IMG/VR virus record: IMGVR_UViG_3300022939_001455
Location: 1-41,147 of that record
Reading direction: 5' to 3' (one strand)
DNA: 41,147 nucleotides
Source of the DNA: a virus
The notes beneath the pieces were generated by a model, which was given only the letters and a program-made list of their open reading frames with translations, had not been told where the DNA came from and ran no database searches. The first letter of the stretch is position 1. Every line of letters begins with the position of its first letter. Positions 4,608 through 29,961 of the stretch are shown here, piece after piece. Position numbers and translations under genes: made by a program.

Positions 4608-5168
4608 ATGGGTATAATTCGTGACCGTGGTAATGATGGTGGCAATATTTGGAGATGGGACACTCTCATCAGATTCATTAAAGAAAACAATTATAAAACA
4701 GGCGCTGAACTTGGAGTGCACGATGGTGTAAGCTTCAAAAATATGGTAAAACGTTGTCCTGAATGTAATTTAGTTGGTGTTGATTTATATGAATCACAAC
4801 CAGAAAATAATGGTCCAGAAAAATGGACACCAGGCGAAAATGGACATGCTTGGGATCATAAACGTTATTACACAGATTTATTAAACTTTTGTCATAATCA
4901 TGATAACGCTGTTATTATTAAAGATTATACAACAAATGTCGCAGAACAATATCCAGACGGCCATTTCGATTTTGTATTTATTGATGCTGATCATGGATAT
5001 GAAGGTTGCTTAAGAGATATTAAAGCTTGGCACCCTAAAGTCCGTGAAGGCGGTAGAGTTATTGGTCATGATATTCACTTTCCTACAGTACAAAAAGCTG
5101 TTACAGAATTTTACGGAGAAAACTCTTGGAACACCGAAGATGATTTCATTTGGTGGATTCAAAAATAA
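4608..5168 (+). CDS. Class I SAM-dependent methyltransferase
   Basis: A 186-aa protein with a class I methyltransferase core: motif I around residues 26-31 (AELGVHDG, binding S-adenosylmethionine), an acidic end of beta-2 (GVDLYE), then a DFVFIDADHGYEG segment and a REGGRVIGHD strand. This pattern matches the Methyltransf_24 group, which often acts on sugars or small molecules. A GGAG Shine-Dalgarno precedes the ATG. Its stop overlaps the next start by one base, and it opens a four-gene cassette with two glycosyltransferases and a sulfotransferase, so a glycan substrate is likely. The exact substrate cannot be told. Confidence 0.75.
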   Translation: MGIIRDRGNDGGNIWRWDTLIRFIKENNYKTGAELGVHDGVSFKNMVKRCPECNLVGVDLYESQPENNGPEKWTPGENGHAWDHKRYYTDLLNFCHNHDNAVIIKDYTTNVAEQYPDGHFDFVFIDADHGYEGCLRDIKAWHPKVREGGRVIGHDIHFPTVQKAVTEFYGENSWNTEDDFIWWIQK

Positions 5169-5812
5169 TGATTGAAAAGAAACTTTCACAAATTTGGATT
5201 GGTCCAAAGCCTGCTCCATTAAAATGGATGTATACTTGGAGAGATAAACATCCAGGCTGGGAGTATTCTATTTTTACTGATGAAATGTTAAAATCTCGTA
5301 AGTGGCATAATCAACATTTAATAGAACATTATTATAATACTGCAAAATGGCCTGGCGTTTCCGATTTAATTCGTTATGAATTATTGTATGAACGGGGTGG
5401 ATTTTGGCCTGAAGCAGATATGGAATGTTTAAATGACACTACAGAATTATTTGTAGCACCTGACGATCATGCATATACATGTTATGAAAATGAAAAAGGT
5501 AGAGAAAACTTTGTACAACCAATTATGGCTGCTAATCCAGAAAATCAATTTGTTAAACATATAATTGATACACTTCATAAATTAAAACCACAAGATCTTA
5601 AAGAACCTTGGATGTCAACAGGGAATGCATTTCTTGCAAATCATGTTGTTAATTGGAAAGATAAATTAACTATATGGCCTTCACATTGGTTCATCCCTTT
5701 ATTTTATATTGGTGGAGCAAAGCGCTATGACGGACCTGATAAAGTGTATGCAGACCACAAATGGGGGTCCACAGGCCATGCAAATAGTGTATCATATGAT
5801 AGAGGAATATAA
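5168..5812 (+). CDS. Glycosyltransferase, GT32-like (DXD sugar transferase)
   Basis: A 214-aa protein resembling the short GT32/Gly_transf_sug group: IPKxIHQIW-type opening (here LSQIWIGPKP, residues 6-15), WEYSIFTDE, then SDLIRYELLYERGGFW at 65-80 followed by E82-A-D84, a variant of the usual metal-binding DXD. It would transfer a sugar from a nucleotide donor in the cytoplasm. I chose the ATG at 5168 because it overlaps the previous stop (TAATG) and starts where family members start; the TTG at 5150 would add six residues inside the previous gene. The Asp-to-Glu change in the DXD may alter metal use. Confidence 0.72.
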   Translation: MIEKKLSQIWIGPKPAPLKWMYTWRDKHPGWEYSIFTDEMLKSRKWHNQHLIEHYYNTAKWPGVSDLIRYELLYERGGFWPEADMECLNDTTELFVAPDDHAYTCYENEKGRENFVQPIMAANPENQFVKHIIDTLHKLKPQDLKEPWMSTGNAFLANHVVNWKDKLTIWPSHWFIPLFYIGGAKRYDGPDKVYADHKWGSTGHANSVSYDRGI

Positions 5813-6471
5813 TGTATATATCACACAAATATAAATTAATATTTTTAAGAACACCTAAAACAGCAAGTAGTAGTTTATCAGAATTTTTTATTAAAAATAT
5901 TCCTGATGATTACGCGATTTATACTCCAGTAGAAGATTCTAATATTCCTGGAACGTTAAATCCAGATATTATTAATAAGTATAAAATTAATTTTAAATAT
6001 TATCATTTTACATTAGAAGATTTAGTTAATAATGAAATTATAACAGAAGAACAAGCAAAAACATATAAATCATTTGCTGTTATAAGAGATCCAGTTGATA
6101 GACAAAAAAGCTTTTATTATTTCTATAAAAACTGGAAAGGTAGGCATTCACCTGCATCATTAGATGAATATAAAGCCTGGACTTCAAATGGTTCATTTAT
6201 TGGAGAACCAAACTCTGCTATTAAACAAACAGATATTCTTTCTATAAACGAAGAAATTATTGGTAATTATTGGTTATATGAAAACATAAATGATGAATTA
6301 AATAATCTTATGAATGAATTACATTTGCCTGTTAAGTATCCATTAACTAATCATAAAAATGGTTATAGAAAAAATAGAGATAATGAAATTGTATTTGATG
6401 ATCAGTCTATGAGTGATTTAAGAAATGCATTTACTAAAGACTTTGAAATATATGAAAGCTTACATTCTTAA
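5812..6471 (+). CDS. Sulfotransferase family protein
   Basis: A 219-aa PAPS-dependent sulfotransferase-like protein. Residues 13-21 (RTPKTASSS) match the 5'-phosphosulfate-binding loop (PKTGSTS type), and IRDPVDR near residues 91-97 matches the 3'-phosphate-binding motif. It would move a sulfate group from PAPS to a sugar or another hydroxyl. The start overlaps the previous stop by one base and the end overlaps the next gene by 20 bases, so the four-gene cassette is translationally coupled. Sulfotransferases are found in some marine phages. Acceptor unknown; a host or virion glycan is the reasonable guess given its neighbours. Confidence 0.75.
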   Translation: MYISHKYKLIFLRTPKTASSSLSEFFIKNIPDDYAIYTPVEDSNIPGTLNPDIINKYKINFKYYHFTLEDLVNNEIITEEQAKTYKSFAVIRDPVDRQKSFYYFYKNWKGRHSPASLDEYKAWTSNGSFIGEPNSAIKQTDILSINEEIIGNYWLYENINDELNNLMNELHLPVKYPLTNHKNGYRKNRDNEIVFDDQSMSDLRNAFTKDFEIYESLHS

Positions 6472-7135
6472 AATTGATACACCTATTTCAAATGAGTATG
6501 CTAAAACATGTGCAGACTCTTGTGATAAAGTAGGATTAAACTGGGAATATTTTAATGGATACCAAAATATGACCGGTGCTGCAGCATGGGGATTAACAGG
6601 TATTAAAACTCAATTTAATGAAGCTTATCGTTATATAGAAAATCCAAATGCTGCTCAAAAAGCAAATGCTTGTAGTGCTGGACATGCCGCAATATGGAAA
6701 AAAATTGCAGAAGGTCCAGATGATATTGGTATTGTATTAGAACATGATGCAATAATGCTTCAACCAATAACTATTCCTATTCCTGAAAATATGATTGTAA
6801 CTCTTGGTTATAAAATGCCAGATATAGAAAGATATGATCATGTTGCAGCAGGCCTTCCTACTGAAATTATTCCTATTCGTGGTCATGAAGGTGCGCATGC
6901 ATATGCAATGACTAAAAATACTGCGCAGTTTCTTGTAAACGAAATAGAAGCAAGAGGTGTTATGAGTGCAGTTGATAATGCTTATTTTATTATGGGACAA
7001 AGAAGTACTAGAGTTCCATTAGGAATAATGTCACCTACGCCTGCAATTGGTTGGTTAAGAGAATCAACAATCTGGGGTGGATCAGCATATAGAAACTATA
7101 ATTTTATACCTTCCTTTCAGGAAAATTATAAATAA
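6452..7135 (+). CDS. Glycosyltransferase, GT25-like
   Basis: A 227-aa protein resembling the GT25 (LPS biosynthesis) family: MKAYILKID opening, ACSAGHAAIWKKI at about 73-85 (family version ACxxSHxxxWKKI), V-L-E97-H-D99-A in place of the DXD-type LEDDA, and GAHAYAMTKNTAQFLV, which matches the family's GTxAYxISxxxAxxLL. I prefer the ATG at 6452 over 6425 because family members begin with this strand and the earlier ATG lies deeper inside the sulfotransferase. A TATAAATA box overlaps its stop and belongs to the next gene. It closes the glycan-modifying cassette. Confidence 0.68.
   Translation: MKAYILKIDTPISNEYAKTCADSCDKVGLNWEYFNGYQNMTGAAAWGLTGIKTQFNEAYRYIENPNAAQKANACSAGHAAIWKKIAEGPDDIGIVLEHDAIMLQPITIPIPENMIVTLGYKMPDIERYDHVAAGLPTEIIPIRGHEGAHAYAMTKNTAQFLVNEIEARGVMSAVDNAYFIMGQRSTRVPLGIMSPTPAIGWLRESTIWGGSAYRNYNFIPSFQENYK
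7127..7134 (+). promoter_or_regulatory. T4-type late promoter box TATAAATA
   Basis: Exact T4-late -10 consensus at the end of the GT25-like gene, 35 bp before the ATG at 7170. Placement is like the boxes before 722, 11792 and 15363, all putative head genes. Confidence 0.6.
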
Positions 7136-7169: not shown

Positions 7170-10100
7170 ATGGCAGACAAGCCAAAAAAGGGTAAAAAGA
7201 GTTTTAAGTCTTTTAACCCAAAGAACATTATTGACGTAAAACCAACACTTGATGAAGCTGTAAAGAAAACGGCTGTAATTAGTTTTGGTAGAATGAATCC
7301 AATTACTATTGGTCATGAAAAGTTAGTAGGAAAAGTTACTACAGAAGCTAGAATGAGAAAAGGAACTCCTATGATTTTCTTAACTCATTCAGAAGATGCT
7401 AAGAAAAATCCTTTATCATATAATGATAAAATTAAATTTGCTCAAAAAGCATTTGGTAAAATTGTAGTAAAATCTCCAGCAAGAACAATTATCGAAGTTA
7501 CTAAATATTTAACTGGTAAATATAGTAATCTAGTAATGGTTGTTGGTTCTGACAGAATTAAAGAATTTGAATCTCTATTAAACAAATATAATAATAAAGA
7601 GTTTAAATTCGACAATATAGAAGTAGTATCATCTGGCGATAGAGATCCAGATGCAGAAGGCGTAACTGGCATGTCAGGTACTAAGATGAGAGAATTGGCA
7701 TCTAAAAACGACATTACTGCATTTACTAAAGGCCTTCCTAATAGATTAAAACCCAATGCTAAACAAGTATTATTAGCAGTAAGAAAAGGTATGAATATGT
7801 CAGAAGAAAATATAGTAGAAGAGCAAGAATTAGACGAAGCTTTAAGTAGAATGGCTCGTCGTAAACGTTCAATCGCTGCAAGGAGAGCACGTTTTAGAAT
7901 GAAGCGTGGTAGAGAAAGAGCGAAAAAGAGAGTTGCTTCTTTAGATGTACTTAAAAGACGTGCTCGTAAAGCTGCTATTAAATTTTTTAAGAAAAGATTT
8001 ACTAAAGGTAGAAATTATAATACAATGTCTGCTGGAGAAAAAGAAATCATTGATAAGAGAGTAGAAAAGATTAGTAAAAAACGTTTAGACCAAATCGCTC
8101 GTAAACTTCTTCCGAAGATTAAGAGAAAAGAATTAGATAGACGTAAAGCTATGATGGCACGCCAAACTAAAAATGAAGAAGTACATTTAGAAGAAGCTTC
8201 AAAAGCTGATACTAGAGTTCGTAAGCGCCCACACATGATGATGGATTCAAAAGGAGCTGTTAAATTTGATGGACGTTTTAAAATTTATAAGAAAAAAACA
8301 GTTAATGAATCAGTTGAAGATGAAGTAGTAGATTTAATGGAATCTACAGAAGCTTTTGCCAATTCAGTATCACCAGAGCAAATTGATGAGTTATCAAAAG
8401 AAAAATTAGCGGGATATGAAAAGAAAGCTAGAACTTCTGCCATAGTTAATGCTCTTAAGTTTGGTAAAAAAGCTCATGATAAGTATAAGAAAAGAGAAGC
8501 TGGTTTAAAGAAAGCATCAAAGAAAACTGGTACTCAATATTCAAATGCTTGGAGGCATGAATCTAATGCTAGTGGCGAAAAAAATCTAGAATTAGATAGA
8601 GAAAGAGCTGCAAAAGCAAAATTAAAGCCTAATGATCGTGCTAAAATAGATGCGATCAAATCTATGATGAAACACGCAAATGAAGAAACACAAATTGATG
8701 AATTATCAAATGATCTTTTACAAAGATATGATGATGCTAAAGAGAAAAAACATAGACAACCTGATGGTTCAACGAAATATAAAAGTGTACATCAATCATT
8801 GAAACGTACTGTTGGTGGTATTCGTTCTTTAAAAAGACAAGCAGGTTTTAAAGCACCTACTAATAAAGTTTCAAGAGCAGATCACTTTGCTGCATACGGT
8901 AAAGATGGACATAAAGTTGTAGCAAAACATAATAAAAAAGTAGCAAGAGAATCAGTTGAATATGATTTAAACGAAGATGCAAAAGTTATTGCTCACTTAG
9001 TTAAAAAAGGTTTAAATCCTAAAGATGCTGCAGCTTCTACAAAGAAACATTTACCTTATGTTAAAAAAGCATACGGTAACCTTTCACCTGCTCAAGCTGC
9101 CGCAAAAGTCAGTATGGCAAGAGCAAATGAAGAAAAACAAATCGACGAATTATCAAAAGATACATTAAAATCATATCGAAAAAAAGCTGATAAATCAGCA
9201 GTTGATAGTTTAACAAGTAATGATCCTAAGCAAAAATTAAAATACGGGAAAAGATTAACTGGTATGGGTAGAGCAACTAAAAGATTGAATAAAGAAGAAA
9301 AACAAATTGATGAATTATCAAAAGATACTCTTATGAAATACTCTGATGCTGCTTCTAAAGATCTTATGAAAGCAGTACATGGTGATAAAACTTCTAACAT
9401 CTATAAAGTTAATAAAACCTCAAAATCTGGTAAACCATTAACAGTCCAAGGTATTAGACGTAGACAAAACAAAAAATTTGATAGAAGAACATCACAATCA
9501 GGTGATGCATATCGAAAAGCACAAGCAATGGAAAGTGTCGAGCAAATTGATGAATTATCAAAAGATACACTTGGTAGTTATATTGGAAAAGCAACTGATG
9601 ATAAAAAAGCTTGGAAAGATACTAGAAAAGCTTTTGCAAAAAAAGGTTATAAAGATCATGGATTTGAAAACTCAAAAATAGCAAAAAGAAATACGGGTAT
9701 TAAGAAAGCAGCATCAAGATTGACTAAAGAAGATACACAATTTGATGAATCAATACATCACGATATAGATCATTCAGATCCAGATTTTAAACGTCTATTG
9801 AAAAAACACAATGTTACTCATAGTGTAGTTAAGAGAGGTCCACAATCTGGTGATAGTATTAAATTACATGGTGATAAAAAGAATGTTCAACATGTTTCAA
9901 AGGTATTAAGAAACCCAGAACAGCATCAAAATGAAGCATGGTCTCCATTAAGTAAAGGCACTCAAGATCATATTGCTGATGTTCAACAAAAGAGAGCAAA
10001 TGATCTTAAGAAATTAAGAGATGCAAAAAGAGCTAAGAATCCTACTTTCATGGATAAGTTTAAAAAAGGATTTAAGAAAGAAGATACAGAACAATTAGAT

Positions 10101-10625
10101 GAATTAAATCCTTCAACATTAGGAAGATATAGTCGTGCAGCTGCAAGAGATGTGGGTATTACTAGTGATCATAAAAGAATTAAAAAGCGTCTAAAAGGTA
10201 TCGATAATGCTACTCATAAGCTTGCTATGAAAGCAATTAGAGGTGGCGTAAGAGAATCGAAAGTACCTTTTGATCCTCCATATAAAAAGGTTAAAAGCGG
10301 TACTACTATAGATAAATCAGGTGCTAAACATACTCCAATGTCTAAAGCTCGTCATTTAGCTCAAATGGCTATTAAACAAGCAATGGATAAAAAGCAGAAA
10401 AAAGAAGATGTAAACGAAGCTACTTGGAGTGTTGATGTTGCGGGCATGCCTAAATTTTATGTCGATGGTAAATCACAAGGTGATGTCAAAAAAGAACTAC
10501 GCAAATTAATCAAATCCGATAAAATTAAAGAAATTATAGTTAAAAGAGTTCAGCCGATCGAGGTTAGAAAAGATTTTAGACAAAGATCTCAAGATCCATC
10601 TGGTAAAGCAGAAACAGAAGAATGA
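7170..10625 (+). CDS. Nucleotidyltransferase fused to a repeat-rich putative internal-head polyprotein
   Basis: A 1151-aa, very Lys/Arg-rich protein. Residues about 34-200 form a cytidylyltransferase/NMNAT-like domain: G40-R-M-N-P, then T46-I-G-H49 (the T/HxGH signature) and SGTKMRELA as the ISSTxxR-type motif. The remaining 950 residues are basic, low-complexity segments separated by acidic stretches with Q-I-D-E-L-S (near residues 404, 508, 658, 712, 792) and variants (Q-L-D-E-L near 975, L-D-E near 219, Q-F-D-E near 857, L-E-E before 350). Each fits I/L-x-E, the cleavage rule of T4 prohead protease gp21. I infer a late, packaged polyprotein that delivers a nucleotidyltransferase plus basic peptides. 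An alternative is a scaffold-type core protein. Substrate unknown; NAD or nucleotide metabolism is plausible. Confidence 0.6.
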   Translation: MADKPKKGKKSFKSFNPKNIIDVKPTLDEAVKKTAVISFGRMNPITIGHEKLVGKVTTEARMRKGTPMIFLTHSEDAKKNPLSYNDKIKFAQKAFGKIVVKSPARTIIEVTKYLTGKYSNLVMVVGSDRIKEFESLLNKYNNKEFKFDNIEVVSSGDRDPDAEGVTGMSGTKMRELASKNDITAFTKGLPNRLKPNAKQVLLAVRKGMNMSEENIVEEQELDEALSRMARRKRSIAARRARFRMKRGRERAKKRVASLDVLKRRARKAAIKFFKKRFTKGRNYNTMSAGEKEIIDKRVEKISKKRLDQIARKLLPKIKRKELDRRKAMMARQTKNEEVHLEEASKADTRVRKRPHMMMDSKGAVKFDGRFKIYKKKTVNESVEDEVVDLMESTEAFANSVSPEQIDELSKEKLAGYEKKARTSAIVNALKFGKKAHDKYKKREAGLKKASKKTGTQYSNAWRHESNASGEKNLELDRERAAKAKLKPNDRAKIDAIKSMMKHANEETQIDELSNDLLQRYDDAKEKKHRQPDGSTKYKSVHQSLKRTVGGIRSLKRQAGFKAPTNKVSRADHFAAYGKDGHKVVAKHNKKVARESVEYDLNEDAKVIAHLVKKGLNPKDAAASTKKHLPYVKKAYGNLSPAQAAAKVSMARANEEKQIDELSKDTLKSYRKKADKSAVDSLTSNDPKQKLKYGKRLTGMGRATKRLNKEEKQIDELSKDTLMKYSDAASKDLMKAVHGDKTSNIYKVNKTSKSGKPLTVQGIRRRQNKKFDRRTSQSGDAYRKAQAMESVEQIDELSKDTLGSYIGKATDDKKAWKDTRKAFAKKGYKDHGFENSKIAKRNTGIKKAASRLTKEDTQFDESIHHDIDHSDPDFKRLLKKHNVTHSVVKRGPQSGDSIKLHGDKKNVQHVSKVLRNPEQHQNEAWSPLSKGTQDHIADVQQKRANDLKKLRDAKRAKNPTFMDKFKKGFKKEDTEQLDELNPSTLGRYSRAAARDVGITSDHKRIKKRLKGIDNATHKLAMKAIRGGVRESKVPFDPPYKKVKSGTTIDKSGAKHTPMSKARHLAQMAIKQAMDKKQKKEDVNEATWSVDVAGMPKFYVDGKSQGDVKKELRKLIKSDKIKEIIVKRVQPIEVRKDFRQRSQDPSGKAETEE
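8370..10150 (+). repeat. Diverged tandem protein modules with QIDELS boundaries
   Basis: Within the 7170 gene, the nucleotide words coding E/Q-Q-I-D-E-L-S-K recur near 8376, 8686, 9133, 9298, 9541 and, diverged, 10086. They are spaced about 160-450 bp apart, each followed by D-T-L-x-x-Y-like codons and then a Lys-rich region. The units are not identical, so they look like old duplications under selection rather than recent slippage. A further unit (VELDEISQETLKSY) occurs in the 11792 gene near 12958. Confidence 0.75.
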
Positions 10626-21686: not shown

Positions 21687-21747
21687 TAAATAAATGAATC
21701 AACTTGAGAATGCTTTTTTCTCTAGATTGAGAAAGAAAGGAACAGTT

Positions 21748-22167
21748 ATGGAAAAAATTAAAAAAGCCATTTGGTTTACACTTGGAATTATTTTATTGGG
21801 AGTTGCATATCTTGGTGTAATATTACCAGGCTTGCCTTGGAGTACTCCTGCTTTAGGAGCAGCATTTTGTTTTGCGAAGTCTAGCAAAAAATTTCATGAT
21901 TTCATTTTAAATCATCCAAAGTTTGGTCCGTTTATTAAAAACTGGTCTAAGCATAGAGTATATCCAACCTATGCAAAATTTTTTATGGTTACAGTAATGC
22001 TTTCATCTTTAGGTATTACTTACTATACTACTGGAAATGAAAAAGCAGTATTCTGGATGTTTATGTTATTCTCAGCAATTGTTGTTTGGGCATCTCGTTA
22101 TCCTGGATCTCAAGCAGAAGCAGAAAGAAGAATTAAAGCCGGAGAAAAAATAGGCTGGTTAAAATAG
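21748..22167 (+). CDS. DUF454 (YbaN-like) inner-membrane protein
   Basis: A 139-aa membrane protein of the DUF454/YbaN family. Visible hallmarks are a first membrane helix (about 8-28) ending in LPGLPWSTPALGAAFCFAKSS, then the short FHDFILNHPKFGPFIKNW segment, and two more helices at about 78-95 and 100-115. Function of the family is unknown. I chose the ATG at 21748 with AAAGG upstream rather than 21694, which lacks a Shine-Dalgarno. Its presence in a phage dNTP operon is unusual and it may be acquired from bacteria. Confidence 0.8.
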   Translation: MEKIKKAIWFTLGIILLGVAYLGVILPGLPWSTPALGAAFCFAKSSKKFHDFILNHPKFGPFIKNWSKHRVYPTYAKFFMVTVMLSSLGITYYTTGNEKAVFWMFMLFSAIVVWASRYPGSQAEAERRIKAGEKIGWLK

Positions 22168-22209: not shown

Positions 22210-23238
22210 ATGTCAAAAAGGGTTCTTATTACGGGCGGCGCAGGATTTATTGCTCACCACGCCATCAACGAAATTTTACGCAGAACAGATTGGGAAGTTG
22301 TATCACTAGATCGTTTAGATTACAGTGGCAATCTTAACCGTCTACATGATATACTAAATGATCTACCAGCAGATCAAAAGAAAAGAGTAAAAATCGTTTA
22401 TCATGATCTTAAAGCCGAACTTAATCCTATGATTGTAGCAGACATTGGACGCATTGATTATGTTGTTCATATGGCTGCTGGTTCACACGTAGATCGTTCT
22501 ATTACTTTCCCAGAAGAATTTGTAATGGATAATGTCGTTGGTACTTGTAATATTTTAAATTATGGTCGTCATCTTGATAGTCTAGAAAAGTTTATTTACT
22601 TTAGTACAGATGAAGTATTTGGCCCTGCTCCTAATGGTATTAAATATGATGAATATGCTCGTTATAATTCAACCAATCCATATAGTGCTACTAAAGCAGG
22701 AGCTGAAGAATTAGCAGTTGCTTTTGAAAATACTTATAAAATGCCTATGATTATTAGTCATACAATGAACGTATTTGGTGAGCGTCAACATCCTGAAAAG
22801 TTTATTCCAATGTGTATTAAACGTGCTCGCGATGGTGAGGTAGTTACTATTCATAGTGATCCATCTAAAACTGTTGCAGGCTCTCGTCATTATATTCATG
22901 CTGCTGATGTTGCAGATGCAATGATGGTACTTTTAGAGAATGATGTACATCAACCAATTAATGATAACTCTGGAATTAGAGCTCAAAAATATAATATTGT
23001 AGGTGGCGAAGAATTAAGTAATCTTGATCTTGCAAAAATTATTGCGGAGGCGCAAGGTAAAGAACTCAAGTATGAAATGGTAGATTTTCATTCAGCACGT
23101 CCTGGACATGACTTACGTTATGCAATGAGTGGTGATCGTATGAAAGATTTATTTGGTTGGGAACCAGTTCCAGTAAGAGATAGAATTGCAGAGGTAGTTG
23201 AGTGGACACTTAAAAATGACCGCTGGTTAAAAGCATAG
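22210..23238 (+). CDS. NAD-dependent sugar-nucleotide epimerase/dehydratase, RmlB-like
   Basis: A 342-aa extended short-chain dehydrogenase. The Rossmann glycine motif is G9-G-A-G-F-I14; STDEVFG is at 132-138; the catalytic Y158-S-A-T-K162 pair follows. The STDEVFG segment and length are those of dTDP-glucose 4,6-dehydratase, but a related 4,6-dehydratase or epimerase on another nucleotide sugar cannot be excluded. It would prepare an activated deoxysugar for the phage's glycosyltransferases. A GGAG site precedes the ATG; it opens the glycan gene block. Confidence 0.85.
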   Translation: MSKRVLITGGAGFIAHHAINEILRRTDWEVVSLDRLDYSGNLNRLHDILNDLPADQKKRVKIVYHDLKAELNPMIVADIGRIDYVVHMAAGSHVDRSITFPEEFVMDNVVGTCNILNYGRHLDSLEKFIYFSTDEVFGPAPNGIKYDEYARYNSTNPYSATKAGAEELAVAFENTYKMPMIISHTMNVFGERQHPEKFIPMCIKRARDGEVVTIHSDPSKTVAGSRHYIHAADVADAMMVLLENDVHQPINDNSGIRAQKYNIVGGEELSNLDLAKIIAEAQGKELKYEMVDFHSARPGHDLRYAMSGDRMKDLFGWEPVPVRDRIAEVVEWTLKNDRWLKA

Positions 23239-23246
23239 GAGAAATA

Positions 23247-23825
23247 ATGAATTTTTCAGACGTAATAGAACAAGAATATCAACAAGTATTAAATACACCT
23301 GGTGATATTAATGAACACTTAGAACTATTATATGAATTAGCTTGTGAATGCGATCATGTAACTGAATTTGGTAGTCGCTTTGGCGATAGCACAAAAGCCT
23401 TTTTAAGAGCTCCTTGTAAATTAAGAGCATATGATTTAGAAATGCATCCACCTTTACAAAATTTATTTAATTTGGCTGAGCTAGATGGTAAAGATGTTAA
23501 GTATAGAAGAGGAAATACTTTAACACTTCTTATTGAACCAACTGATATGATTTTTATTGATACTTGGCATTCAAAAGAACAATTACAAAAAGAATTAAAA
23601 TTACACGGTAATACACCTAAAAAATATTTAGCATTTCACGATACTCATACTTATGGAGTAAGAGATGAAGATAAAGAATGGTGGAAAAATCCGGATCGTA
23701 AAGCAATTAAAGGACAGGGACTACTTCCTGCAGTAATTGAATTTGTAATTGCAAATCCTCATTGGAAATTTAAAACTCATAGAACAAATAATAATGGACT
23801 TACAGTATTGGAGAGAGTAGAATAA
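23247..23825 (+). CDS. Class I methyltransferase-like protein
   Basis: A 192-aa protein with a Rossmann-type SAM pocket: HVTEFGSRFGDST at about 35-48 (motif I), a short acidic strand (RAYDLEM), DMIFIDTWHS and YLAFHDTHTYG, resembling Methyltransf_24 and cephalosporin-hydroxylase-like (CmcI) proteins, which share TxHxxxQLxxELxL-type sequence. It lies between the RmlB-like gene and the GT17 fusion, with a start overlapping neither. A sugar or glycan O-methylation is the natural guess, but hydroxylase-like members exist as well. Confidence 0.65.
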   Translation: MNFSDVIEQEYQQVLNTPGDINEHLELLYELACECDHVTEFGSRFGDSTKAFLRAPCKLRAYDLEMHPPLQNLFNLAELDGKDVKYRRGNTLTLLIEPTDMIFIDTWHSKEQLQKELKLHGNTPKKYLAFHDTHTYGVRDEDKEWWKNPDRKAIKGQGLLPAVIEFVIANPHWKFKTHRTNNNGLTVLERVE

Positions 23826-25382
23826 ATGGCGATTGTAGATTGTTTTCCATTTTTTGCACCTTACGGTGAAGAGCTTCTTTATTTACGTGTTAACTTATTA
23901 AAAGATCATGTAGATAAATTTATTATTGTTGAATCAAATAAAACTCATAGTGGTAAACCAGTAGAAAGAAAGTTTATGGAAATTGCTCGTAAGCTTGGAC
24001 TTCCTATTGAAAAGATTCATTATGTAGAGCATGATATTCCCGAAACAAAAGACTTACAAATTTTAGAAATTGATAAAAGAAATGCGGGAGTAAATGCAAA
24101 TAATACTGAATCATTATATGCTCGTGTAAGAGAACGCTTACAAAAAGATGCTGTAATGATGGCAATGCAAGATTTCCAACCTGATGATGTATTCATTTAT
24201 GGAGATGCTGATGAGATTATTAATCCACAACATATTAAATGGGTAGCAGGATTAGCAAAAAACAATCCAGGAATTCTTGTAAAAATTCCATTAGTATATT
24301 TGCAAGGCCGCGCAGATTTAAGAATCCATCATAGAAATGGTGCTCCTGTTGTTTGGTGGAAAGCAATGTTTTTTGCAACTAAGCAAAAAATTATGGAAAA
24401 TAAAATTAGTAATATGAGATGTGGAAACGTTTCTATGCCAGTACAACATCCAAGACATAATGGAGAAGTAATACAAGATATGGGTTGGCACTTTGCTTGG
24501 ATGGGAAATAAAGATCAAAGACAAACTAAAGCAGATTCATTTGCTCATGCATATGACAGCTTTAAATGGATGGATACAGGCGAAGGCTATTCTGATTATA
24601 AAAAGTTTGTAGATACAACTGCACCTATTGAAGGTAATGTTGCTCCGGATGGAAACAAAGATCATGTATTAAAAAGATATCCGCATTCGTCATTACCAAA
24701 ATTAATATTTGAAAAGCAATGGATTAAAGATTTCTTATTACCTGAAGTTAAATTAGATGAGCCATTTGCATTTAATGATTGTCATTGTTATTGGTGTCAA
24801 AAACTAGAGTTTCCTTTAATGTATCAATTAGATAAAGAAGGTAAACAGACTTGGTTTGAAATTCCAAGAAGTTGTTCTGTAACAATGAAAGAAAGTTTTC
24901 CAGATCGTCAACAGGTATTGCGCAGTACAAAGCTATATAAAGACCTTGCTAAAAGAAGCAAGCCAATTGTTGTATGGACAGATCCAGTTGATAGATTTAT
25001 TTCTTTAATTAATGTATTTGTTGTTCCTAAACAAAGATACTGGGATTATGGAGATAATCTTTTTCAATCGTTCGATGTAAAATTAGAAGATTGTACTAAG
25101 CAAGAAAAAATAGATTATTTCTTTGCAAATATGAATAAAATTAATTCTTTTCATCAAGTACATCACTTTCATCCACAGTGTAGATTTGTTGATACAGATA
25201 ATTTTAAAGAATTTACAATCATTAAAAGAGAAAATTTAAATAAAGAATTAAATATTGATTTGCATTATAATGCTACTGAAAAAGAAATCACCAAAGAAGA
25301 TTTAACTAAAGAGCAGATAGAATTTATTAAACGAGCATACGCTAGCGATTACGAGTTTATTAAAAAATATGGCAAAGAATGA
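23826..25382 (+). CDS. GT17-like glycosyltransferase fused to sulfotransferase-like domain
   Basis: A 518-aa two-domain protein. Residues 1 to about 290 match GT17 (beta-1,4-mannosyl-glycoprotein GlcNAc-transferase family): VDCFPFF opening, LLKDHVDKFIIVESNKTHSG, and YGDADEI as the likely metal site. From about residue 310 the protein changes: E-I-P-R-S-C-S-V-T-M-K at about 345-355 resembles the PAPS 5'-phosphosulfate loop and W-T-D-P-V-D-R-F near 384 the 3'-phosphate motif of sulfotransferases. It could add a sugar and sulfate it. The stop overlaps the next gene by 14 bases. The GT17 call is firm, the second domain moderately so. Confidence 0.75.
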   Translation: MAIVDCFPFFAPYGEELLYLRVNLLKDHVDKFIIVESNKTHSGKPVERKFMEIARKLGLPIEKIHYVEHDIPETKDLQILEIDKRNAGVNANNTESLYARVRERLQKDAVMMAMQDFQPDDVFIYGDADEIINPQHIKWVAGLAKNNPGILVKIPLVYLQGRADLRIHHRNGAPVVWWKAMFFATKQKIMENKISNMRCGNVSMPVQHPRHNGEVIQDMGWHFAWMGNKDQRQTKADSFAHAYDSFKWMDTGEGYSDYKKFVDTTAPIEGNVAPDGNKDHVLKRYPHSSLPKLIFEKQWIKDFLLPEVKLDEPFAFNDCHCYWCQKLEFPLMYQLDKEGKQTWFEIPRSCSVTMKESFPDRQQVLRSTKLYKDLAKRSKPIVVWTDPVDRFISLINVFVVPKQRYWDYGDNLFQSFDVKLEDCTKQEKIDYFFANMNKINSFHQVHHFHPQCRFVDTDNFKEFTIIKRENLNKELNIDLHYNATEKEITKEDLTKEQIEFIKRAYASDYEFIKKYGKE

Positions 25383-26490: not shown

Positions 26491-26827
26491 AAAATATGTT
26501 GTAGTAACAGCAACTTCTACTCATCGTATGCGTTACGTTGTTCCTGTAAGTGAATTGCAAAAGCTAAATACAAATACTATAATTGATGATGATAAAGCAA
26601 TTGAGTGGGCTCAAGATTCTGTTGTATGTGAAGATGTAGCAGAATTTTCTCAACATTATATGGGTGAACATATTGTAGATACTGAAATTGTTGATGAGCA
26701 GCAAATATTAAATTTGTGGGATCGTGATAATGATTACATGGCAAATTTAACTACAGAAGAAAAGCTCAAAAGGATTCACGATTGGAAAGACCCTTATAAG
26801 CAAAAGCAAACAGGAACAATTTTATAA
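26480..26827 (+). CDS. Conserved phage protein of unknown function
   Basis: A 115-aa acidic protein with AGGAG before the ATG. The first 35 residues look like beta-strands (KYVVVTATSTHRMRYVVPVSEL); the rest is helical and acidic, ending in EKLKRIHDWKDPYKQ. No known domain. Its stop overlaps the ATG of the UDP-sugar dehydrogenase gene by one base, so the two are translationally coupled, but its sequence gives no hint of a sugar-related role. Confidence 0.5.
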   Translation: MSSEKYVVVTATSTHRMRYVVPVSELQKLNTNTIIDDDKAIEWAQDSVVCEDVAEFSQHYMGEHIVDTEIVDEQQILNLWDRDNDYMANLTTEEKLKRIHDWKDPYKQKQTGTIL

Positions 26828-27594
26828 TGAATATTTCTATTTTTGGTTATGGATTTGTAGGTAAAGCGCATGCTCTTGCCTTAGAAGGTAATTCAATCAA
26901 AACTCATGTATACGATCCTGCATTAGGATTTGATCAATTACACGACAATCCAGACGCTGCAATCATTGCAGTTTCTACTCCCCAAAAAGAAGATGGTTCA
27001 TGCGATATGTACAATGTATATAACGCCCTTTCACTTATTCCTGAAGATGTTCGTGTTCTTATTAAAAGTACTATTTCGCTTGAAGGTTGGAGAACAATAA
27101 AAAATGAATATCCAAATCGAGCAATTACATTTTCACCAGAGTATTTAAGAGCAGCTTATGCTTTAGAAGATTTTAAAAACCAAGATCTTGTTTATATTGG
27201 TGATGGTGATACTTATTTTTGGGAAGATTTAATTTCAGATGCTTTAAATATACAAGTAGTATCAGTATATGGTGCAGAAGAATTAATTTTATCTAAGTAT
27301 TTCATAAATAGTTTTCTTGCTACAAAGGTTTCATTCTTTAATCAAATATATGATTTATGCAAAACAGCAGAAATTGATCCAGACGTAGTTTGTACATTAG
27401 TAGCAGAAGATAAAAGAATTGGTGATAGTCATAGTTATGTTACAGAAGAGCGAGGCTTTGGCGGACATTGTTTCCCTAAAGATACATCAGCAATTGCTTT
27501 CACAGGACAAAACTTCAATTCGCCATTAACTATAATTGAATCAGCAATAAAATATAATAATGAGTTAAAAAATGAAAGTAGGAATAACATTTAG
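26827..27594 (+). CDS. Short UDP-glucose/GDP-mannose dehydrogenase-like protein
   Basis: A 255-aa NAD-dependent nucleotide-sugar 6-dehydrogenase relative. G7-Y-G-F-V-G-K13 is the Rossmann loop, VSTPQKEDGSCD the conserved loop, FSPEYLR the SPE motif, and F-G-G-H-C215-F-P-K-D the catalytic cysteine. Typical members have 390-450 residues; this one ends soon after the cysteine and lacks the C-terminal nucleotide-sugar-binding domain, so either a partner supplies it or the substrate differs. The end overlaps the cytidylyltransferase by 23 bases. It would oxidise an activated sugar to a uronic acid. Confidence 0.8.
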   Translation: MNISIFGYGFVGKAHALALEGNSIKTHVYDPALGFDQLHDNPDAAIIAVSTPQKEDGSCDMYNVYNALSLIPEDVRVLIKSTISLEGWRTIKNEYPNRAITFSPEYLRAAYALEDFKNQDLVYIGDGDTYFWEDLISDALNIQVVSVYGAEELILSKYFINSFLATKVSFFNQIYDLCKTAEIDPDVVCTLVAEDKRIGDSHSYVTEERGFGGHCFPKDTSAIAFTGQNFNSPLTIIESAIKYNNELKNESRNNI

Positions 27595-27991
27595 TACGTT
27601 TGATTTGTTACATGCTGGTCATGTACAAATGCTACGTGAAGCAAAAGATCAATGTGATTATCTAATTTGTGGTTTGCAAATGGATCCAAGTTTAGATCGT
27701 CCAGAAAAAAATTCTCCAGTACAAACTGTAGTTGAAAGATATACTCAACTTAATGCAGTTCAATATGTAGATGAAATTATCCCATATAATTCTGAAAAAG
27801 ATGTCGAAGATATATTGACAATGTATGATATCCATGTTAGAATATTAGGAGAGGAGTATAAAGAGCTGGATTTTACCGGTAAGGATATTTGCAAAAAACG
27901 CGGTATCCAATTATACTTTAATAAAAGAGATCATAGATTTAGTTCAAGTGATTTAAGAAAAAGAGTCAAGGAGAGAGAAGATGGTAGATGA
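27572..27991 (+). CDS. Cytidylyltransferase (glycerol-3-phosphate/TagD-like)
   Basis: A 139-aa cytidylyltransferase fold enzyme: GITFSTFDLLHAGH with H14-A-G-H17, LICGLQMDPS, and a C-terminal RFSSSDLRKRV as the nucleotide-binding ISSTxLR-type motif. The size fits TagD-type CTP:glycerol-3-phosphate cytidylyltransferase (about 130 aa), which supplies CDP-glycerol, but ethanolamine- or other phospho-alcohol-specific enzymes are equally close. The 23-base overlap with the dehydrogenase gene suggests joint action in making an activated glycan or polyol. Confidence 0.82.
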   Translation: MKVGITFSTFDLLHAGHVQMLREAKDQCDYLICGLQMDPSLDRPEKNSPVQTVVERYTQLNAVQYVDEIIPYNSEKDVEDILTMYDIHVRILGEEYKELDFTGKDICKKRGIQLYFNKRDHRFSSSDLRKRVKEREDGR

Positions 27992-28966: not shown

Positions 28967-29264
28967 ATGTTTATCAGGAATGATAAGAAAAAGTTTAACG
29001 GCAGATGGATTTATAGTTCCTTGCTGCTGGGTTGATAATTATAAATGCAGAAAAGATAAAATATTTAAAGAATTTTTTAAAAAAGAAATGCATATTGATA
29101 ATTTTGAAAATATAGAAGATATAGAAAAATCTGAATTATGGAATAATTTTTATAATATGATAAAAAATAATAATAAAAACTTATGGCAATGTTTTGATCG
29201 TTGTCCAAAACCTGCAACAGTTTCAGGTGAAACAGAAATGAGAGATAGAATAAAATATGAATAA
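28911..29264 (+). CDS. Radical SAM protein, C-terminal SPASM-like part (second frame)
   Basis: This open frame holds KCLSGMIRKSLTADGFIVPCCWV and later WQCFDRCPKP, five or six cysteines in the layout of a SPASM-type auxiliary cluster domain. It overlaps the first part (28364-28966) and has no Shine-Dalgarno; ATG candidates are 28911 and 28947. I read it as the detached end of the radical SAM enzyme, in +1 frame relative to the first part. It overlaps the next gene by eight bases. Confidence 0.65.
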   Translation: MYMIRICQRIKYMQKIYPKCLSGMIRKSLTADGFIVPCCWVDNYKCRKDKIFKEFFKKEMHIDNFENIEDIEKSELWNNFYNMIKNNNKNLWQCFDRCPKPATVSGETEMRDRIKYE

Positions 29265-29961
29265 ATTTATATTTGATGTAGATGGTACTTTAACACCAAG
29301 TAGAGGAGTTATTAATAAAAAATTTAAATCTTGGTTTGATAAATTTGCTTCAAAGAATGATGTTTATCTTGTTACAGGTTCTGATAAATCAAAAACTGTA
29401 GAACAAATTAGTGAAGACACGTATAACTTATGTAAGCGTGTTTATAATTGTAATGGAAATGATACGTGGGAAGGTGATACTAATATTGAATATAATACTT
29501 GGATATTAGAAGATGATGAACATCAATGGTTAGCCAAACAATTAAATGATAGTAAGTTTCCATTAAGAACTGGTAACCACTTTGAACATAGACCAGGCAT
29601 GTTAAATTTTTCTATAGTAGGTCGTAATGCAGATCCAAGCGAGCGTCATAAATACGTTATGTGGGATACTGCAACAAAAGAAAGAGAACAAATTGCATAC
29701 AAATTTAATCAAGAGTTTCCTCATTTAGAAGCAAAAGTTGGTGGTGAAACTGGATTAGATATTGCTCCAAAAGGAGCAGATAAAAGTCAAATATTAAAAG
29801 ATTTTTCTGACGAAGATACTATTATTTTCTTTGGAGATAAAATGGAAGAGGGTGGAAATGATTTGCCTTTAGGTGAAGCTCTCGTAAATAATCAAAAAGG
29901 CAAAGCGTTACAAGTTATTGATTGGAAAGATACTTGGAAAAAGTTAAAGGAGATGTTATAA
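29257..29961 (+). CDS. HAD-family phosphomannomutase-like (eukaryotic-type PMM) protein
   Basis: A 234-aa HAD-superfamily enzyme. D7-V-D9-G-T-L-T is the catalytic loop. FEHRPGMLNFSIVGRNA corresponds to the FRNGMLNVSPIGR motif of eukaryotic phosphomannomutases (PMM1/2), and FFGDKMEEGGNDLP to their FFGDKTxxGGNDxE loop, so this is more specific than a generic HAD call. PMM interconverts mannose-6- and mannose-1-phosphate, on the way to GDP-mannose. A phosphatase on another sugar phosphate is possible. Its stop overlaps the peroxiredoxin start by one base. Confidence 0.75.
   Translation: MNKFIFDVDGTLTPSRGVINKKFKSWFDKFASKNDVYLVTGSDKSKTVEQISEDTYNLCKRVYNCNGNDTWEGDTNIEYNTWILEDDEHQWLAKQLNDSKFPLRTGNHFEHRPGMLNFSIVGRNADPSERHKYVMWDTATKEREQIAYKFNQEFPHLEAKVGGETGLDIAPKGADKSQILKDFSDEDTIIFFGDKMEEGGNDLPLGEALVNNQKGKALQVIDWKDTWKKLKEML

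Follow-up and report, generated by a model that had tools for sequence, protein, structure and literature searches.

A viral protein that joins a family 17 glycosyltransferase domain to a predicted sulfotransferase-fold domain, a candidate glycan-tailoring enzyme

Can one viral polypeptide both add a sugar to a glycan and sulfate the product? The question is raised by an open reading frame in a virus record of 41,147 bases, all of which was analysed and is called the window here. An earlier note, made from the DNA letters, had read this frame as a glycosyltransferase of family 17 (GT17) fused to a sulfotransferase-like domain (ST), and had quoted two motifs from its C-terminal part. The frame lies exactly at 23826-25382 on the plus strand and encodes 518 residues, and both motifs are found within it (IPRSCSVTMK at residues 346-355 and WTDPVDRF at residues 384-391), with core residues conserved in its relatives. 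The protein and its two parts are as follows.

23826..25382, plus strand: two-domain protein, GT17 followed by sulfotransferase, 518 amino acids (Pfam, relatives, structure model)
23826..24743, plus strand: GT17 domain, residues 1-306 (PF04724; unfused relatives stop at this point)
24753..25379, plus strand: sulfotransferase-fold domain, residues 310-518 (AlphaFold2, VIA-align, hhalign, unfused relatives of 199-251 amino acids)

The N-terminal assignment made in the earlier note holds at the level of the family profile, as PF04724 matches residues 16-138 (E-value 3.3e-8; 33.4 bits, cut-off 26), the match being partial (profile positions 86-191 of 348). The domain carries the acidic motif D127-A-D129-E130, whose DxDE columns are invariant in 10 of 10 aligned sequences; by analogy with GT-A enzymes, DxD would be the metal- or donor-binding motif. 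The window protein resembles Glycosyltransferase family 17, the MGAT3 family, in passing the Pfam cut-off and in conserving DxDE, but it is viral, covers the profile partially and has an extra C-terminal sulfotransferase domain. Judged by its family, the N-terminal domain would be expected to perform glycosyl transfer. NCBIfam gave no match anywhere in the 518-residue protein, and in PHROGs the whole protein reached an E-value of 0.14 at best and its C-terminal part 0.0057. A search of a phage collection returned two weak relatives, on the GT17 side only (28% and 25% identity), and zero relatives of the C-terminal part at E<=1.

The nature of the C-terminal domain was approached through its predicted structure. 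An AlphaFold2 model of this domain, built from 45 aligned relatives, has a mean pLDDT of 92.7 and a pTM of 0.88 (a single-sequence model of the whole protein, with a pLDDT of 32.1, was discarded). In VIA-align comparisons, for which the rows were pre-picked by Foldseek, all 50 matches listed are sulfotransferases, Teg12 and StaL among them. The best among the matches listed is NDST1 (Z 7.3, rmsd 4.0 over 156 residues), followed by HS 2-OST (Z 7.1) and 3-OST (Z 7.1), with cytosolic SULTs near 5; the three leaders are glycan-sulfating enzymes. Taken alone, a Z of 7.3 is middling, in a range that the tool calls common, and for the modelled domain the single superfamily found across the listed rows is the stronger sign. 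A Foldseek search of the PDB likewise places sulfotransferases at the top, with a best E-value of only 0.066 and none below 0.001, and in the BFVD viral library 15 of the best 20 rows are named sulfotransferase, the top one being from phage P-SSM7 (E 2.7e-5). The earlier note had made its reading depend on a sulfotransferase fold in this part of the chain, and on model confidence, VIA-align rows and BFVD rows alike the predicted domain has that fold.

In Pfam, no sulfotransferase match was obtained for the window's C-terminal domain, even at an E-value of 10. Among 28 domain sequences in a first Pfam scan (E<=10), 11 matched Sulfotransfer_2 (best 7.3e-5) and 7 matched an unrelated DUF (best 0.01). 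Sulfotransfer_2 (PF03567) was matched by 9 of the 45 relatives at E<=0.01 (best 4.6e-5), and when 10 relatives were scored singly three matched it, with 16.5, 17.4 and 20.7 bits, all below the cut-off of 22. By hhalign, comparison with 17 bacterial and phage Sulfotransfer_2 proteins (set A5) gave a probability of 89.6-92.6 and a score of 45.9-48.8, against controls in which 200 column shuffles peaked at 21.4, the reversed alignment scored 12.3 and comparisons with the glycosyltransferase domain 14.6-14.7. The A5 result stands alongside a non-significant one (probability 1.7) for A6, a narrower set made up of four bacterial sequences. Set A5 was drawn from 26 fetched PF03567 loci that were examined (20 regions plus L152, L232, L233, L234, L237 and L244), with the omission of 4 loci without an ORF having the motif pattern and of the 5 close relatives L232, L233, L234, L237 and L244, the only ones examined of a 30-locus fetch; it includes, as L152, the window's own protein at 5812. 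Because the motifs served as the selection filter, motif counts in A5 are biased towards them. Sequence searches of the PDB with the whole fusion protein and with the ST profile (A1) returned no sulfotransferase, the rows being chance-like.

The earlier note had proposed looking for the fusion in other phages, and in IMG/VR it proves widespread. A scan with the whole fusion protein found 68 loci, and over two scans 58 full-length rows (contig duplicates and the window included) correspond to 40 distinct two-domain proteins. The fused proteins are represented by 24 members below 95% mutual identity and, exact copies aside, share about 60-70% identity with the window protein. Each half also has unfused relatives. 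Those with GT17 only (L055-L058; 319-320 amino acids) end where the second half would start, and those with the ST domain only (L135, L137-L142 and L144-L146; 199-251 amino acids) start at the border or about 40 residues earlier; because unfused relatives of both kinds end or begin there, the domain border is placed near residues 306-315. Fourteen viral records with an unfused half were searched over their full length, and 2 of them (169,742 and 72,114 bases) have both halves as separate genes; in G010 and G011 the GT17 and ST genes are about 41 kb apart. In 13 close pairs, which share sequences and are not independent, dN/dS is 0.017-0.066 for the GT17 half and 0.020-0.115 for the ST half, values that indicate strong purifying selection on both. 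A tree of 50 distinct ST domains (44 labelled fused, among them L048, L053 and L077, which are cut by contig ends, and 6 alone) was obtained by a quick search and drawn with a midpoint root, its true root not being fixed. A branch (SH-aLRT 98) separates four of the unfused domains from the rest, and the other two lie among the 44 fused ones; the minimum number of changes for the fused and unfused states is two, and L135 and L137 are on long branches. A single fusion, with later loss of GT17 in L135 and L137, would fit this tree without being proved by it.

GT17 itself appears to be joined to a range of partners in phages. A scan with divergent GT17 domains, of which the best 80 of 297 relatives were taken, yielded 79 loci and 67 distinct GT17 ORFs, and the ST profile matched none of the ORFs of those 79 loci. 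By pattern labels, 13 of the 67 GT17 ORFs from these best 80 of 297 are GT17 alone, and the remainder carry TPR-like, DUF6445-like, methyltransferase, repeated GT17 or other extras; apart from the methyltransferase of the window type, these labels are short pattern matches. With profile E-values of 8.8e-51 to 1.1e-82, at least six distinct GT17 ORFs carry a domain of the same family as the window methyltransferase that neighbours the fusion, and the two that were compared are 49% and 55% identical to that neighbour. Such GT17-methyltransferase fusions are found at L342 1273-2757, L344 2998-4467 and L353 2992-4476, and in three proteins from an earlier scan Pfam shows GT17-DUF6445 at L064 4992-6470, GT17-Methyltransf_24-DUF6445 at L063 2818-4950 and GT2/GT7C-GT17 at L062. 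Like the window protein, those of L342, L344, L353, L064 and L062 join this GT17 module to another domain, but that partner is not a sulfotransferase. The methyltransferase that is fused in some loci and adjacent in others is the best evidence that methylation may act on the GT17 product, and by analogy sulfation would likewise act on it. This bears on the possibility that both domains are active on different substrates, the fusion serving merely to co-regulate two glycan genes with separate sites of action. The ST domains that stand alone (6 of the 50 distinct ones) and the distant genes of G010 and G011 speak for such an arrangement, but the fusion has been maintained across the 40 distinct sequences and the joining of GT17 to other tailoring domains points to one product, so we regard separate substrates as unlikely.

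Four stretches of the C-terminal domain stand out, two of which resemble elements of a PAPS-binding core.

24780..24797, plus strand: CxCxxC (Cys319, Cys321, Cys324) at the start of the ST domain, invariant in 45 of 45
24852..24890, plus strand: strand-loop-helix with the PAPS-loop-like WFEIPRSCSVTMK, residues 343-355 (model, conservation)
24975..25004, plus strand: strand-turn-helix with the 3'-phosphate-site-like WTDPVDRFIS, residues 384-393, containing PXXRXXS (model, conservation)
25155..25178, plus strand: QVHHFHPQ, residues 444-451, which aligns with HxxPQ of bacterial Sulfotransfer_2 (hhalign, alignment)

In the available text of PMC11625862, the PAPS-binding core is described as a strand-loop-helix with a lysine, or an arginine in Stf0, together with a strand-turn-helix that has PXXRXXS in PF03567. 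In the model, the first element is formed by strand 33-36, a loop and helix 42-48, which carry PRSCSVT, and the second by strand 72-75, a turn and helix 78-90, which carry DPxxRFxS (domain numbering). PRS is conserved in 45 of 45 aligned ST-domain sequences, as is each of P387, R390 and S393 of PXXRXXS. Arg348, likewise present in all 45, takes the place of the usual PAPS-loop lysine (Lys in 17 of 17 A5 relatives), and the arginine that precedes DP in 17 of 17 of that motif-picked bacterial and phage set is here Thr (27), Ser (17) or Ala (1); an arginine before [DN]P is not named as defining for PF03567 in the available text of PMC11625862. The aligned domains have 40 invariant positions, and E345, E356, H446 and H447 are invariant candidates for a catalytic base, His or Glu. 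The likeness to PAPS-binding motifs pointed out in the earlier note is borne out by PXXRXXS and Arg348, yet the arginine before DP is replaced throughout. Set beside the Sulfotransfer_2 (PF03567) carbohydrate sulfotransferases and, by fold, heparan sulfate 2-OST, 3-OST and NDST1, the window domain has the same strand-loop-helix and strand-turn-helix PAPS core with PXXRXXS, an HxxPQ-like stretch and a similar C-terminal Y..D[YF]..F. It differs in scoring below the Pfam cut-off, in the change of the PAPS-loop Lys to Arg, in the replaced Arg before DP, in its invariant CxCxxC and in its fusion to GT17.

These differences could mean that the domain has kept the fold and lost PAPS chemistry, and now binds glycans, plays a structural part or works with a different donor. 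Both arginine/lysine substitutions hold in all 45 sequences, and the invariant cysteines, which might bind zinc or form a disulfide, have no explanation in the usual mechanism. However, an arginine in the PAPS loop is present in Stf0, a working enzyme. The complete PXXRXXS and the many invariant positions resemble an active site more than a binding module, and dN/dS is low, and on balance a loss of chemistry seems to us quite unlikely. PAPS binding and sulfate transfer by the domain would be expected from the families to which it is related.

The genes around the fusion, and a further sulfotransferase gene of the same virus, are listed next.

23247..23825, plus strand: SAM-methyltransferase-like gene directly upstream of the fusion (weak Pfam match below cut-off, PF04989, 20.2 bits)
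22210..23238, plus strand: NAD-dependent sugar dehydratase/epimerase, dTDP-glucose 4,6-dehydratase-like (PF16363, 1.6e-48)
26827..27594, plus strand: UDP-glucose/GDP-mannose dehydrogenase-like gene, downstream (PF00984, 2.8e-22)
27572..27991, plus strand: cytidylyltransferase-like gene, downstream (PF01467, 1.4e-13)
29257..29961, plus strand: phosphomannomutase/HAD-like gene, downstream (PF03332, 1.2e-27)
5812..6471, plus strand: second, separate Sulfotransfer_2 gene (PF03567, 9.9e-10, 39.4 bits, cut-off 22)

The ATG of the fusion at 23826 abuts the TAA stop of the methyltransferase gene (23823-23825) without a gap, and the dehydratase/epimerase gene scores 239 bits with TIGR01181, under that model's cut-off of 365. 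This arrangement is shared by the fused relatives. Of the distinct fused loci, 39 extend far enough upstream to be scored by script; in all 39 a dehydratase/epimerase lies within 1.5 kb before the fusion, and in 37 a methyltransferase immediately precedes it; of the two exceptions, L024 has none that was seen, and in L044 the methyltransferase is present and was missed, its ORF start having been placed too early. Six loci have enough DNA downstream, and there a cytidylyltransferase and a phosphomannomutase-like gene are each found in 6 of 6 and a UDP-glucose dehydrogenase-like gene in 5 of 6. The order dehydratase/epimerase, methyltransferase, fusion is seen in both the window and L134, GT17 alone sits in the fusion's place in L056-L057, and in L137 the ST domain alone comes after the dehydratase/epimerase. 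Several relatives keep a DUF454 gene ahead of the glycan operon, as the window does (21694-22167; PF04304, 5.5e-25).

The gene at 5812..6471 is the sole PF03567 match in the window. It scores well above the cut-off, and the presence of a sulfotransferase in this virus therefore does not hang on the fusion alone. Recent duplication of this gene did not give rise to the fused domain, because BLAST between the two gives only an E-value of 0.031 over 16 residues. This gene lies in a second glycan cassette (window 4608-7135) with Methyltransf_24, a DXD glycosyltransferase and GT25. Beyond it, window 7170-10625 encodes a protein of 1151 amino acids with no Pfam match. In PHROGs, its N-terminal third, beyond which some 800 residues follow, resembles cytidyltransferase families of phages (phrog_3041, E 2.2e-60). 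In L135 the stand-alone sulfotransferase shares its virus contig with an ORF (9265-10080) with an apparent resemblance to a KDO-8-phosphate synthase.

APS kinase (PF01583) was matched in 3 of 11 viral records at 30-33 bits, above Pfam's low cut-off and over about 80 residues. A phage supply of PAPS is not claimed, the scores of about 22-28 bits falling far below the NCBIfam apsK cut-off of 138.7 and a generic P-loop kinase being possible. Small P-loop kinases with weak APS-kinase similarity are encoded at L229 1306-1746, L230 1300-1749 and L231 1498-1920, in records that carry the fusion. A Rhodobacteraceae bin with three such contigs was rejected as evidence of the host, since those of its contigs whose names give very different coverages look like binned virus contigs.

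The neighbourhood also bears on the target. Phages are known to glycosylate their own DNA, and this virus has nucleotide metabolism genes (RNR, thymidylate synthase), so the acceptor might be a phage component, modified DNA or a virion protein, in place of a surface glycan, an alternative that concerns the target and leaves the chemistry as it is. We find it very doubtful, since the neighbours are sugar-nucleotide genes, the nearest folds among the VIA-align matches listed are polysaccharide sulfotransferases, and none of the window proteins that were scanned was recognised as base-modifying. That a frameshift, chimera or mis-assembly joined two genes, which do occur separately elsewhere, can be dismissed as already refuted by the many samples that yielded full-length fusions (40 distinct sequences), the coherent synteny at fused loci and the low dN/dS over both halves.

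Taken together, we consider the protein to be a modular glycan-tailoring enzyme that would add a sugar and sulfate the product, with a probability of roughly 0.66 for this reading, in which activity, acceptor and order of steps are all predicted. As a two-domain enzyme of a marine phage, it would act as follows. The GT17 domain, judged by its family, would move a sugar from a nucleotide sugar, one that the products of the dehydratase/epimerase, dehydrogenase and nucleotidyltransferase genes nearby probably make. The C-terminal domain, again as its relatives suggest, would then sulfate the same glycan or its carrier with host PAPS as donor, and the upstream methyltransferase probably O-methylates the glycan too. 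The likely target is a surface glycan, either host lipopolysaccharide or a glycan of the virion, the modification of which may block rival phages or change recognition.

Each domain is known by itself, and phage sulfotransferases are known as well; by titles and the starts of abstracts, no description of a phage GT17-sulfotransferase fusion was found in the open-licence PMC literature. The sulfotransferases of Prochlorococcus phage P-SSM7 (E3SP23) and Synechococcus phage S-T4 (A0A385EF11) match the window domain by fold in BFVD, and they lack room for a GT17 domain because they are 196 and 241 amino acids long. Three proteins of giant viruses, annotated as GT25 or as capsular polysaccharide synthesis (A0A5J6VIG4, A0A1V0SGR8 and A0A5J6VJR2), match the ST model with E-values of 6.7e-4, 0.42 and 0.56, and may, by their names and aligned lengths, also be chains of a glycosyltransferase and a sulfotransferase, but they have other glycosyltransferase families and belong to eukaryotic viruses.

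According to the available text of PMC10580990, the function of phage sulfotransferases remains unclear. A sulfotransferase-fold domain chained to a glycosyltransferase within a sugar-nucleotide operon points to a glycan acceptor, and the fusion offers one gene to express and test. The GT17 domains fused elsewhere to a methyltransferase or a DUF6445-like domain suggest a general phage route to glycan diversification. More tentatively, and at somewhat less than even odds, these genes may form a modular decoration line, in which GT17 adds a sugar and exchangeable fused or adjacent modules (sulfotransferase, methyltransferase, DUF6445-like) modify the very sugar so added, the window enzyme giving rise to a sulfated, probably methylated surface glycan foreign to the uninfected host. 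If true, such a line would provide phage sulfotransferases with a concrete acceptor and a role.
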